A stretch of DNA of 64,000 bases from Hydrogenophaga sp. PAMC20947 (lineage in GTDB: Bacteria; Pseudomonadota; Gammaproteobacteria; Burkholderiales; Burkholderiaceae_C): NCBI RefSeq assembly GCF_004795855.1, contig NZ_CP039252.1, positions 3,038,001-3,102,000 of the forward strand, written 5' to 3'. The notes beneath the pieces were generated by a model. The model searched no databases, was not told the origin of the DNA, and saw only the letters and a list, made by a program, of their open reading frames with translations. Shown one piece after another: positions 28,627-31,476 of this stretch. The first letter of the stretch is position 1. Each line of letters starts with the position of its first letter. The position numbers and the translations under genes are program-made.

Positions 28627-28810
28627 GACGACCGCTTCGACGGGACCAAAAGTCGGGACCTGTCACCCGTCTACCTGGCTTCCAGGCTTCCTGCGTCAAG
28701 CTGGAGGCCACGTCGACCAGAGGCTCAGACCGCAGCCACGCCCTGAACCTTCAATCTGACAAGACACAGAAGGTTCTGTTAACCCGTGCCGCCTCATGAG
28801 CGATCACTCT

Positions 28811-28966
28811 CTATCCGTTCTTTATTCCCAACTTGTCACCCAACTTGTCACCCAGCTTGAGCCCCAGCTTGACCTCATCGCCATGGGTTCTCTTGCCATC
28901 TGGCAGGGATTGAGCCAGGCGAAATCCCAGCAATTCCTTGGCGTTCAGTTTTTGAAACCATTTCAT
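28811..28966 (-). CDS. putative RiPP precursor peptide B (51 aa), repeat-containing core
   Basis: A small gene found by reading the minus strand. ATG at 28966, AGGAG six to ten bases upstream, TAG at 28811-28813. The leader-like half reads MKWFQKLNAKELLGFRLAQ and closely matches peptide A (MKFFQKLSVNDLLGFRLAQ); PDG and GD follow in both. The C-terminal half is a K-L-G-x repeat (KLGLKLGDKLGDKLG), rich in Lys and Asp. The conserved leader, variable repeated core and neighbouring HExxH and ATP-grasp genes are what one expects of a precursor peptide. No homologue was looked up; maturation is inference. Confidence 0.7.
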   Translation of the reverse strand: MKWFQKLNAKELLGFRLAQSLPDGKRTHGDEVKLGLKLGDKLGDKLGIKNG

Positions 28967-28998
28967 TTCTGTCTCCTATTGAATCGGGATACACGAAT

Positions 28999-29160
28999 AT
29001 GTTCACACAAGCCGCTTCAAGCGTCAACGTACTCAATCAGGCTGTGGCGATCCCCTCTGTCGAGTCACCCACCCCGCCCTGCCATTGGGCTGTCTCTGAC
29101 CATGCCGGTGAGGCCTGCGCTGCACTTGGCAGCTGGGTTTCAGGGGGCAGCACACCATGA
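28999..29160 (+). pseudogene. truncated duplicate of the ATP-grasp gene start (53-codon remnant ORF)
   Basis: An ATG at 28999 opens a 53-codon frame whose first codons (M-F-T-Q-A-A-S-S-V-N-V-L) parallel the ATP-grasp protein start (M-V-T-R-S-T-S-R-V-N-A-L). The distance from this ATG to the adjacent peptide start is 33 bases in both copies. Similarity fades after about 15-20 codons and the remainder (ending GSWVSGGSTP) matches nothing I recognise. It is best read as a duplication remnant; it could also be conserved because the sequence is the promoter of peptide B. Confidence 0.5.
29022..29027 (-). promoter_or_regulatory. conserved TTGACG box upstream of peptide B
   Basis: TTGACG on the minus strand, 56 bases from the peptide B start codon; the identical box lies 56 bases before peptide A. 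Flanking TTGACGC-x-TGAAG and a downstream ACATAT/CCATAT are shared. Probable -35 element of a duplicated promoter. Confidence 0.4.
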
Positions 29161-29248
29161 CCAAAGCTTCGCCCAAGAGCCCCGAAAAATGAACAAACAA
29201 GCTTTGTGCCCAGCTGCCAGGCAAAGCCCACCAACGACTGCCGGATGG

Positions 29249-30229
29249 TCAGCGATAGCCAGCGTTCGTGCGGTCGCTCGCGAGAATCCATCGCCTCGCT
29301 TCGTCCATGATCGCTCGCCCCGACGGAGTCAACTGGGCATGCATGTCAACCGTCGCCACGCCTTTGTGAAAATTGTCGCGGTCCAGGTGTGCCGCTGACA
29401 AAGCCTGATCACGCTCGTCAGCGCTCAAACAACCGCTGTCCAGCAAGGTCTCCATGGCCCACGCCATACGCGCGGAGACGTAGGTGGCGTGAAAAATGCC
29501 GTCCATCGGCCGGGGGTCCGTGCGCAAGGGCGAGTCGTACAACTCATCATCCGGGTTCAGCACCAGCGTCGACTCCCGACTCATGCCGAACAGGACACTG
29601 TGACCCGATTCATGGGCAAGAACTTCCGCCACGGCCAGCCGATTTCGATGGTGAAGGGGGTTGAGCATCAGAAGCCCCCAGAACTGGTAGTGTGAGGCCC
29701 CGTCGAAGTCTATTGCCCCTCCTGCTGGGGACCGGGCCACGACCACCTCGGACAAAAAAGCAGCGATCTCGGCATGCAACCCGGGCGCGCCCAACGCAAG
29801 CAGACTCATCCCCTGGTCCAGGAGCTCACGAAAAGCATCCACCTCAGGCCCCGCGACGGGAGCGAAGATTTTCGCCCCTTCCTCCAGGCGCCAGTCCAGC
29901 GTTTGATCAAGCCTTCGAGAGGCCTCGCTTCCCCGACCCTGCACCACCATGCCCGGCCTTCGCGCACCGCACCGACTCAACTCGCTCGCCGCCAGAGCAG
30001 CATCGTCAAGCCGCTCGTCAAACAGCGTTTCTCCGAGGTGGAAATACAAACCAAATGCCGAGGGCGGCATCGCATGGCCACCCTTCATCAGTTCGATCGG
30101 ATGGGCGAGGTTTCGGGATATTTCCGAAGGCTCACAGGCACGCGCAATGTGTTGCAGGCTTTGCAACAAATCTGCCTGCATCTCAGCATCAAGCCTGCGA
30201 CCGCGTTGGCCACTGGGTTCAAACTGCAT
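29249..30229 (-). CDS. HExxH motif-containing putative peptide-modification enzyme
   Basis: A 326-residue soluble protein. The metal site is HESGH (206-210) in AEVLAHESGHSVLFG. About 25 residues later comes YDSPLRTDPRPMDGIFHATY, the SPx-x-DPRPxxG-x-xHA pattern I recall for the HEXXH-domain family found next to RiPP precursors; some members are described as 2-oxoglutarate/iron peptide beta-hydroxylases, not proteases. H247 is a candidate third ligand. GAGGT sits about four bases before the ATG at 30229. It lies 74 bases downstream of precursor peptide A on the same strand, so the two are likely co-transcribed. Its substrate is inferred to be one or both peptides. Confidence 0.75.
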   Translation of the reverse strand: MQFEPSGQRGRRLDAEMQADLLQSLQHIARACEPSEISRNLAHPIELMKGGHAMPPSAFGLYFHLGETLFDERLDDAALAASELSRCGARRPGMVVQGRGSEASRRLDQTLDWRLEEGAKIFAPVAGPEVDAFRELLDQGMSLLALGAPGLHAEIAAFLSEVVVARSPAGGAIDFDGASHYQFWGLLMLNPLHHRNRLAVAEVLAHESGHSVLFGMSRESTLVLNPDDELYDSPLRTDPRPMDGIFHATYVSARMAWAMETLLDSGCLSADERDQALSAAHLDRDNFHKGVATVDMHAQLTPSGRAIMDEARRWILASDRTNAGYR

Positions 30230-30303
30230 TCACACCTCAGAAACTCAAATCTGACAAGCCGAAGATGGCGCGCGCACAAACAACCCTGTTCAGAAGAGCT
30301 TCC

Positions 30304-30462
30304 TCAGGTGTTAAGTGCTTTACCCGGTTTTCTTCCGTCCGCCCCTCCCAGCTTGCTCCCCGGCTTCACATCACCTGGTTGGGTTTTTGTTCCATCGGGC
30401 GTGCATTGAGCCAAGCGGAATCCCAACAAGTCATTCACACTCAGCTTTTGAAAAAACTTCAT
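30304..30462 (-). CDS. putative RiPP precursor peptide A (52 aa)
   Basis: A small gene read from the minus strand: ATG at 30462, AGGAGG five bases upstream, TGA at 30304-30306. The first 19 residues match peptide B in 14 positions (K-x-F-Q-K-L, L-L-G-F-R-L-A-Q). The C-terminal part is polar, with Gly, Lys, Pro, Asp and Thr (QPGDVKPGSKLGGADGRKPG), and one Cys at position 20. It diverges from the ATP-grasp gene (33 bases between start codons) and precedes the HExxH gene. Its role as enzyme substrate is inferred from the arrangement. Confidence 0.72.
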   Translation of the reverse strand: MKFFQKLSVNDLLGFRLAQCTPDGTKTQPGDVKPGSKLGGADGRKPGKALNT

Positions 30463-30494
30463 TTGTGCCTCCTGTTGAACCTAAACTTGCACAT

Positions 30495-31469
30495 ATGGTT
30501 ACACGGTCGACTTCACGCGTCAACGCGCTCAGGCACCTGGTGTATGTCACAACCCGTGCACACGCTTACACCTTTGCAGCATGGCCAGCATTGATGCGCC
30601 CTCGGGGTGTTGCGGTTCACCAAGCCACGTATGAATCCCTCCTGACGGTACCCAAAGCCTTGCGCGCGACATATGTTCTGACCGATTTCGACCGACTGTC
30701 GTCGAGCGAACTTGAGGCAGCTGTCCATCTTTATGACGGGCTGCGCGCTGCCGGACTGCGCGTTCTCAATGACCCACGGCGCTTCCGGCCACGAGCCAGC
30801 TTGCTCAAGCACCTGCACCAATTGGGTGTCAACAGCTACACCTGCCACTTGCCCGCAGCAGGTGAATGGCCCGAACGGTTTCCTGTGTTCCTCAGAACGC
30901 TGGCCAGCCACCGGGGGGTGCTGAGCGACCTGTTGCAAGACCGTGCCTCGTGTGACGAGGCGCTGGCAGGGGCCTTCCAACTGGGGTATCCGATCAGCGA
31001 TCTGGTTTTTGTTGAATATGCGGCGACCCCAAACCTGCAGACTGGCGCATTTCAGAAGCTGTCGGCGTTTCGCATCGGAGATCGCATCATCAGAGCCAAC
31101 ACCGTGAACGACTCCCACTGGATGGCCAAAACAGGCGTCTCGGGCTTGGCCACCGACGAGCAGTACCGGCAGGAGTACCTCGAAATGACCGACTACCCGT
31201 TGCGCAGCTATGTGATGCGCGTGTTTGACCATGCGGGCATGGACTTTGGCCGCCTTGACTTCGGGAAAACAGGCGAACGATACGAAACATACGAAATCAA
31301 CACCAATCCCTACATGACCATTCAAGTGGAACATCCCAACGCCGACAGGGCCGCGATGCTGGCCACCATGCTGGAACAGTTGATCACTGCGCTGGACGCC
31401 CAGTGCACGGAGGTGGGAAAAGCCTGGGTCACACTGCGTGCCTCTCGCACCCGCATTCCGCGGCTTTGA
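30495..31469 (+). CDS. ATP-grasp family protein, putative peptide-modifying ligase
   Basis: A 324-residue protein with ATP-grasp features: a pre-ATP N-terminal strand (HLVYVTTRAHAYTF), an ATP-binding segment FVEY at 172-175, KLSAFRIGDRIIRANTVND, and metal-ligand motifs RLDFG (D255) and YEINTNP (E267, N269, N271). ATP-grasp enzymes form acyl phosphates and then amide, ester or thioester bonds; graspetide RiPPs use them for side-chain crosslinks. This protein is not a close match to the classical microviridin ligases I know. The start is uncertain: ATG 30495 has no ribosome site and overlaps the putative promoter of peptide A; a GTG near 30540 is possible. Confidence 0.75.
   Translation: MVTRSTSRVNALRHLVYVTTRAHAYTFAAWPALMRPRGVAVHQATYESLLTVPKALRATYVLTDFDRLSSSELEAAVHLYDGLRAAGLRVLNDPRRFRPRASLLKHLHQLGVNSYTCHLPAAGEWPERFPVFLRTLASHRGVLSDLLQDRASCDEALAGAFQLGYPISDLVFVEYAATPNLQTGAFQKLSAFRIGDRIIRANTVNDSHWMAKTGVSGLATDEQYRQEYLEMTDYPLRSYVMRVFDHAGMDFGRLDFGKTGERYETYEINTNPYMTIQVEHPNADRAAMLATMLEQLITALDAQCTEVGKAWVTLRASRTRIPRL
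30518..30523 (-). promoter_or_regulatory. conserved TTGACG box upstream of peptide A
   Basis: Second copy of the box described for peptide B, at the same 56-base distance from the start codon. It lies inside the first codons assigned to the ATP-grasp gene. Confidence 0.4.
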
Positions 31470-31476
31470 GCAACCG

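Follow-up and report, generated by a model that had tools for sequence, protein, structure and literature searches.

A putative RiPP cassette of Hydrogenophaga combines an aKG-HExxH-type peptide hydroxylase, a divergent ATP-grasp ligase and precursors with a lysine-glycine repeat

Analysis of a 64,000-nucleotide stretch of the Hydrogenophaga sp. PAMC20947 genome (the window) identified a cassette of two precursor peptide genes, a predicted alpha-ketoglutarate (aKG) HExxH-type peptide hydroxylase and a divergent ATP-grasp ligase, which very probably represents a RiPP class. A compact RiPP locus with an HExxH hydroxylase had been predicted from the sequence, and it is borne out by a conserved precursor family, the conserved pairing of the two enzymes, the family model and the fold. 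We read this class as apparently undescribed: no paper on the enzyme pair, the leader or the core was found in open-licence PubMed Central, which most subscription papers lie outside and which provides no proof of novelty.

Organization of the cassette

Both minus-strand peptide genes of the original prediction are present with their strong ribosome binding sites (Table 1). The gene of precursor 2 is located in the gap between the HExxH and ATP-grasp genes, as in most divergently arranged relatives. The start of the ATP-grasp gene was set at 30495 because the relatives align from that methionine, and the GTG at 30315, the mechanical start of the open reading frame (ORF), was dropped in its favour. 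A promoter scan gave nothing convincing and listed neither of the two TTGACG sequences. An 84-aa ORF at 29037-29291 was set aside as a gene, no trustworthy Pfam or NCBIfam family being found for it at E up to 1.

Table 1. Features of the cassette (positions in the window)
Feature	Position	Strand	Remarks
Precursor peptide 1, 51 aa	28811..28966	-	Leader ...LNAKELLGFRLA, core ...VKLGLKLGDKLGDKLGIKNG; ORF, AGGAG before ATG
TTGACG, possible -35 box	29022..29027	-	61 bp upstream of precursor 1; duplicated along with the peptide
aKG HExxH-type peptide hydroxylase (predicted), 326 aa	29249..30229	-	TIGR04267
DPRPMDGIFH motif	29489..29518	-	D237, R239, P240, M241, G243, I244 and H246 (alignment numbering) invariant in the HExxH alignment
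HESGH metal-binding motif	29599..29613	-	Both His and the Glu invariant in 32 aligned sequences, window included
Precursor peptide 2, 52 aa	30304..30462	-	Leader ...LSVNDLLGFRLA, core ...VKPGSKLGGADGRKPGKALNT; ORF, AGGAGG before ATG
Divergent ATP-grasp ligase, 324 aa	30495..31469	+	Start set by alignment of relatives
TTGACG	30518..30523	-	61 bp upstream of precursor 2; within the first codons of the ATP-grasp gene
E-I-N-T-N motif of the ATP-grasp	31293..31307	+	E267, N269 and N271 invariant in 33 aligned sequences, window included

The genes flanking the cassette, paaE and a DUF3047 gene, are adjacent in the same-genus relatives G004, G005, G006 and G035, on which the empty-site comparison rests. 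Between aligned ends, the two genes are separated by 290 to 384 bp in these four relatives and by 3173 to 3258 bp in the window, indicating that the cassette (approximately 2.8 to 2.9 kb) was either inserted here or lost there. No mobility gene was seen within the cassette stretch. The G+C content is approximately 0.57 to 0.62 in the cassette, 0.62 to 0.65 upstream and 0.60 to 0.64 downstream.

Conservation and distribution

A pattern-led scan using one genome per species yielded 51 loci with the ATP-grasp gene, 40 of which also contain the HExxH gene. A leader-bearing peptide gene was found in 37 of these 40 two-enzyme loci: the conservation of the peptides beside the enzymes in relatives, on which the original prediction had been staked, was thus observed, and with it the conserved precursor that characterizes a RiPP. 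The precursor was not found in L019 and L035, the HExxH ORF of the latter starting at the contig end; L021, with a long ORF of several LDRxKLMGG...AKIG units, was excluded from the 37. Among the 11 loci without a visible HExxH gene, the leader peptide occurs in L023 only, where the contig ends beside it; with the remaining ten lacking it, the leader peptide co-occurs with the HExxH enzyme. The loci are not all independent and include near-duplicates, such as L009 and L011.

Judged from nearest ORF midpoints, the two enzyme genes are divergent in 28 of the 40 loci, on one strand in nine and convergent in three, a count in which L027 is ambiguous (two pairs) and the genes of L043 lie 6.5 kb apart. 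Pairwise distances of the HExxH and ATP-grasp proteins, calculated for the window and 39 two-enzyme loci (all but L043), correlated at 0.80, a value to which shared species history contributes; none of 2000 permutations reached it, the best being 0.21.

When the enzymes were masked, no other ORF family of at least 120 aa was found in more than 7 of 54 loci, and inspection by eye of the recurring ORFs from these loci revealed no RiPP protease or exporter shared across the class. A flippase-like family occurs in six Hyphomonadaceae-type loci; the one member scanned was of the polysaccharide flippase type.

The distribution of the ATP-grasp is rare and patchy. Counting the genome of the window itself, it was detected in 3 of 60 genomes of relatives (cut-off 1e-10), in 5 of 370 across the class (1e-20) and in 5 of 397 across the phylum (1e-25). 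Four of the five ATP-grasp genomes of the phylum sample also contain the HExxH gene, G470 being the exception. Besides the genome of the window, four genomes of the class sample carry the ATP-grasp, and four loci were opened from three of them (G164 left out). The HExxH gene adjoins the ATP-grasp gene and a leader-like peptide is present in L078, L080 and L081; L079, a second ATP-grasp copy in G181, has neither. Searches of plasmids returned only distant HExxH and ATP-grasp proteins. Four such regions were opened, and tiny ORFs preceding two of them show a loose resemblance to the leader.

The precursor peptide family

The leader-like N-terminus that the two peptides had been said to share is supported by their alignment at the DNA level, which begins approximately 65-70 bp before the ATG and reaches into the core, and by the recurrence of the same leader in the 37 loci. 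Between the two genes, pS/pN was 0.57/0.17 for the first 22 codons and 0.54/0.39 for the remaining codons, as expected of a coding gene that has been duplicated and is constrained chiefly in its leader. In 10 of 10 precursor pairs compared, not all of them independent, pN over the first 22 codons stayed below that of the remaining codons.

The family was sampled as the best 120 of 489 profile matches (E up to 10), using a profile that includes the cores. Its leader reads L-D-x-x-K-L-L-G-F-[K/R]-[L/I] and is followed mostly by G-x-K-phi tetrads. Within the leader motif, D is found in 109 of these best 120 matches, K in 104, the two L in 117 and 115, G in 120 and F in 115. The L-L-G-F positions are thus conserved in 115 to 120 of the 120, next to a core that evolves separately, as is typical of RiPPs.

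The repeat was evaluated by shuffling 38 non-Hyphomonas cores from related loci and the window, picked via the leader. K-x-G (K.G) occurred 130 times against 34.0 expected, G.K 141 times against 33.9 and K...K 110 times against 24.7, and the near-invariant core columns in an alignment of 20 precursors are Gly and Lys only. Each core among the best 120 of 489 contains 2 to 8 K-x-G, and successive K.G lysines are four residues apart in 349 of 430 cases, in a sample selected by a profile that includes the cores. In the same best 120, acidic residues are absent from 15 cores and number at most one in 59, and the C-terminal residue varies, being D or E in five.

The cores of the two window peptides had been described as different; both belong to one family. 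Precursor 1, typical for the family, contains five K.G against 1.26 expected by shuffling. Precursor 2 contains three against 1.04 (p 0.052), a weak excess in a degenerate repeat. Five Hyphomonas-type loci (L034 and L038 to L041) keep the leader with one G-C-K-G-G and an aromatic tail, and the precursor of L044 has zero K.G. NCBIfam matches of 20 precursors (five families, mostly FliH, with at most 3 of the 20 members and a best E of 0.004) were rejected as chance likeness of repeats.

The HExxH enzyme

The HESGH protein with its DPRP motif had been assigned to the HExxH family, and a profile search confirmed this with a match to TIGR04267 of 105.3 bits (curated NCBIfam cut-off, 40). Pfam gave zero families above cut-off for this protein and for the ATP-grasp. 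The R-x-D-x-R-P block lines up with ChlH and SjiH, this motif and HExxH are invariant in the homologues, and the fold matches that of ChlH. By family, motif and fold, membership in the aKG-HExxH peptide hydroxylases is well supported.

The described peptide beta-hydroxylases of this group (ChlH, SjiH, PflC/PosC, PesO, BpmH) share the TIGR04267 model, both motifs and the fold with the cassette enzyme. Unlike it, they are paired with radical SAM, MNIO, arginase or asparagine-synthetase-like enzymes in the available portions of the reports (PMC12636437, PMC13060819, PMC12257519); in PMC12636437 and PMC13060819, the term ATP-grasp is absent from the text. As far as the accessible parts of these papers go, the family hydroxylates His, Asp, Phe, Gln and Pro (PMC13060819), and PosC/PflC cut the backbone at small residues, PosC doing so at Ala and partly at Gly and beta-hydroxylating larger residues (PMC12636437).

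The HExxH enzyme of the cassette probably hydroxylates the precursor core. Since the near-invariant core columns contain only Gly and Lys, the G-x-K-phi tetrad is the likely site, and hydroxylation of lysine would be new to the family.

The ATP-grasp enzyme and its replacements

The ATP-grasp protein with an E-x-N-x-N motif was recognized correctly in the original prediction: the three motif residues are invariant (Table 1) and the block lines up with D-Ala-D-Ala ligases. Zero NCBIfam families scored above cut-off. The nearest folds were those of the amino-acid ligases RimK and LysX/ArgX, at approximately 10 to 16 percent identity; PsnB, MdnC and AMdnB also appeared in the fold lists, ranked below RimK/LysX (19.1 for RimK against 14.2 for PsnB). 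The enzyme resembles amino-acid ligases by fold, a likeness from which we claim no membership in RimK or LysX.

Sister ATP-grasps at nine loci (L045 to L053) have neither an HExxH gene nor a precursor that could be found, with methyltransferases near three of the seven loci scanned, and another relative sits within a polysaccharide cluster. None of these was used to infer function.

This HExxH type was found in 8 of 397 genomes of the phylum sample, four of which have this ATP-grasp. In L073, a 602-aa ATP-grasp with a partial match to cyanophycin synthetase (205 bits against a full-length cut-off of 877) occupies the same place, beside the same kind of HExxH enzyme and a precursor ending in SPKLGIKLVKPQ; it differs from the cassette enzyme in belonging to another ATP-grasp family and is known from this locus only. 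In L074 there is an adenylation-PCP-thioesterase protein, and the adjoining precursor has two LFSKRG units. Both loci retain a leader-like peptide with K-x-G. An overlapping AMP-binding enzyme is present in L075, at which no precursor was found, and L076 has the HExxH type with neither an ATP-grasp nor an adenylating enzyme. Two further searches for loci of the L073 or L074 type returned none, each swap being a single case.

The fold, the acid-poor cores and the partner swaps together point to a small-molecule carboxylate as the donor of the ATP-grasp. The enzyme may decorate the core lysines with a small carboxylic acid, which could be an amino acid; we put this acylation forward tentatively, at somewhat less than an even chance.

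Discussion

The genes, families, folds and conservation observed here are the basis of a pathway in which the hydroxylation site, donor, acceptor, order of steps, export and biological role are proposed. Through its leader, the peptide would be presented to the enzymes that modify it, the HExxH enzyme being the most likely partner. This enzyme, by strong homology an iron- and alpha-ketoglutarate-dependent dioxygenase, would hydroxylate core residues of the G-x-K-phi tetrads, at the beta-carbon by precedent and most simply at lysine. The ATP-grasp would form an acyl phosphate on the carboxylate of a small-molecule donor, probably an amino acid, and transfer the acyl group to the epsilon-amine of the repeat lysines or to the newly formed hydroxyl, so that the peptide would end up with decorated lysines arranged as a ladder. 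As no cassette-linked protease or exporter was seen, trimming and export, if any, would rely on functions from elsewhere. Taken as a whole, this three-component pathway of leader presentation, hydroxylation and lysine acylation is a working proposal that may well prove wrong in part.

The product had been expected to be hydroxylated and/or crosslinked. Hydroxylation is likely, as predicted above; crosslinking is unsupported as a class feature because of the many cores with no acid or at most one, and activation of a free small carboxylate appears to fit better. A reaction like that of graspetides, linking lysine amines or HExxH-made hydroxyls to Asp/Glu side chains of the same peptide, is accordingly improbable. 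Graspetides (microviridins, plesiocin, corallotide) likewise combine a small precursor with an ATP-grasp, and corallotide, in the part of its description available, also combines lysine with hydroxylation. However, its hydroxylase is from another family, the cassette ATP-grasp scores in no family above cut-off and is nearer in fold to RimK/LysX than to PsnB, and many cores lack acid partners for their 2 to 8 K-x-G. The fold ranking, together with the resemblance of the L073 partner to part of cyanophycin synthetase, would rather suit RimK-like additions at the peptide C-terminus, which we consider unlikely, if less so than the former. RimK and LysX substrates have acidic ends, whereas the probable substrate here is a leader-core peptide with a variable and rarely acidic C-terminus; such additions would also leave the K-x-G repeat unexplained.

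The lack of any class-wide protease or exporter among ORF families of at least 120 aa could also mean that the product is not secreted, but is a small basic protein kept at full length in the cell, with modification of its lysine repeat adjusting how it binds nucleic acid or another polyanion. The chance of this appears as slim as that of graspetide-like linkage, given the flippase-like family of six Hyphomonadaceae-type loci and the look of an accessory product conveyed by the scattered occurrence and by relatives with an empty site. With a glycine every four residues, the HExxH enzyme might instead hydroxylate the alpha-carbon of the conserved glycines and cut the backbone, the ATP-grasp then joining short lysine amides to something. 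The precedent is PosC, but in the accessible part of that study cutting at Gly is partial, and the same rule would have lysine hydroxylated without cutting (PMC12636437); we judge such release very improbable. Least probable of all is the phosphorylation by the ATP-grasp of a lysine hydroxyl made by the HExxH enzyme, since the partners in L073, L074 and L075 are of carboxylate-activating types.

Extending the lysine acylation that we prefer, the class could be defined by the HExxH hydroxylase, the L-D-x-x-K-L-L-G-F leader and an interchangeable carboxylate-activating partner that grafts small acids, free amino acids among them, onto each ladder lysine, beside hydroxylated positions, to give a brush-like peptide. 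This more speculative reading we think rather unlikely to hold in full, as we do its corollary that this ATP-grasp, the cyanophycin-synthetase-like ATP-grasp and the adenylation-PCP-thioesterase enzyme are the interchangeable partners. As one peptide and two enzymes seem to be enough, tests of the class should be straightforward.

If the brush-like product is real, the gene encodes a peptide with branches outside the genetic code. With the cassette, RiPPs would gain a class whose code is compact and easily read, comprising a leader motif, a tetrad repeat and two enzymes within less than 3 kb. The HExxH hydroxylases would acquire a new substrate, and ATP-grasp ligases a RiPP role beyond side-chain macrocycles. 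The precursor repeats, with their 2 to 8 K-x-G in the best 120 of 489 matches, would then be a ready ladder for peptide decoration.

Genomic context and upstream sequences of the cassette

Comparison with four genomes of the same genus showed that the stretch from 28630 to 31470 of the window is an additional segment: it separates paaE from the DUF3047 gene, and these two genes are adjacent in all four relatives.

A TTGACG sequence was found at the same distance from each of the two precursor peptide genes.

TTGACG sequences upstream of the precursor genes
Sequence	Position	Strand	Location
TTGACG	30518-30523	-	61 bp upstream of precursor 2 start
TTGACG	29022-29027	-	61 bp upstream of precursor 1 start

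The copy preceding precursor 2 overlaps codons for Val and Asn close to where the ATP-grasp gene begins; this residue pair is common among relatives. TTGAC was present 54 to 94 bp upstream of 23 of the 43 precursors, a raw count that includes any chance matches. This recurrence, together with the overlap with the Val-Asn codons, suggests that the first codons of the ATP-grasp gene may also contain a candidate promoter box.

Variation among related loci

In the Hyphomonas-type loci (L034, L038-L041) a flippase-like gene, of the polysaccharide flippase type in the one member scanned, lies between the two enzyme genes, and the precursor contains a single GCKGG followed by an aromatic tail. The flippase family is also present in locus L029. 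A very long ORF (L021:6491-8098), in which LDRxKLMGG ... AKIG units are repeated, appears to encode multiple precursor units fused into one, and protein P0242 represents a two-unit form.

The sister ATP-grasps of loci L045-L053 were found without HExxH gene or precursor. Methyltransferases occur nearby in three of the seven loci scanned (L045, L050 and L051), and another relative sits within a Paracoccus polysaccharide cluster.

Distribution of the leader and of the class

Tiny ORFs (L093:5414-5512 and L092:5479-5559) are located directly ahead of distant HExxH genes on Xenorhabdus and Pantoea plasmids. Because their sequences (KFDTQKIIGLK and KVESSKLLKIK) loosely resemble the leader, the latter may be more widespread than the class of the cassette itself.

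Loci L010, L031 and L032 are titled as Verrucomicrobia-type MAGs. Among the precursor-family proteins, P0263 and P0326 are assigned by their sources to Verrucomicrobiia and Planctomycetia, and the class may therefore extend past the Proteobacteria.
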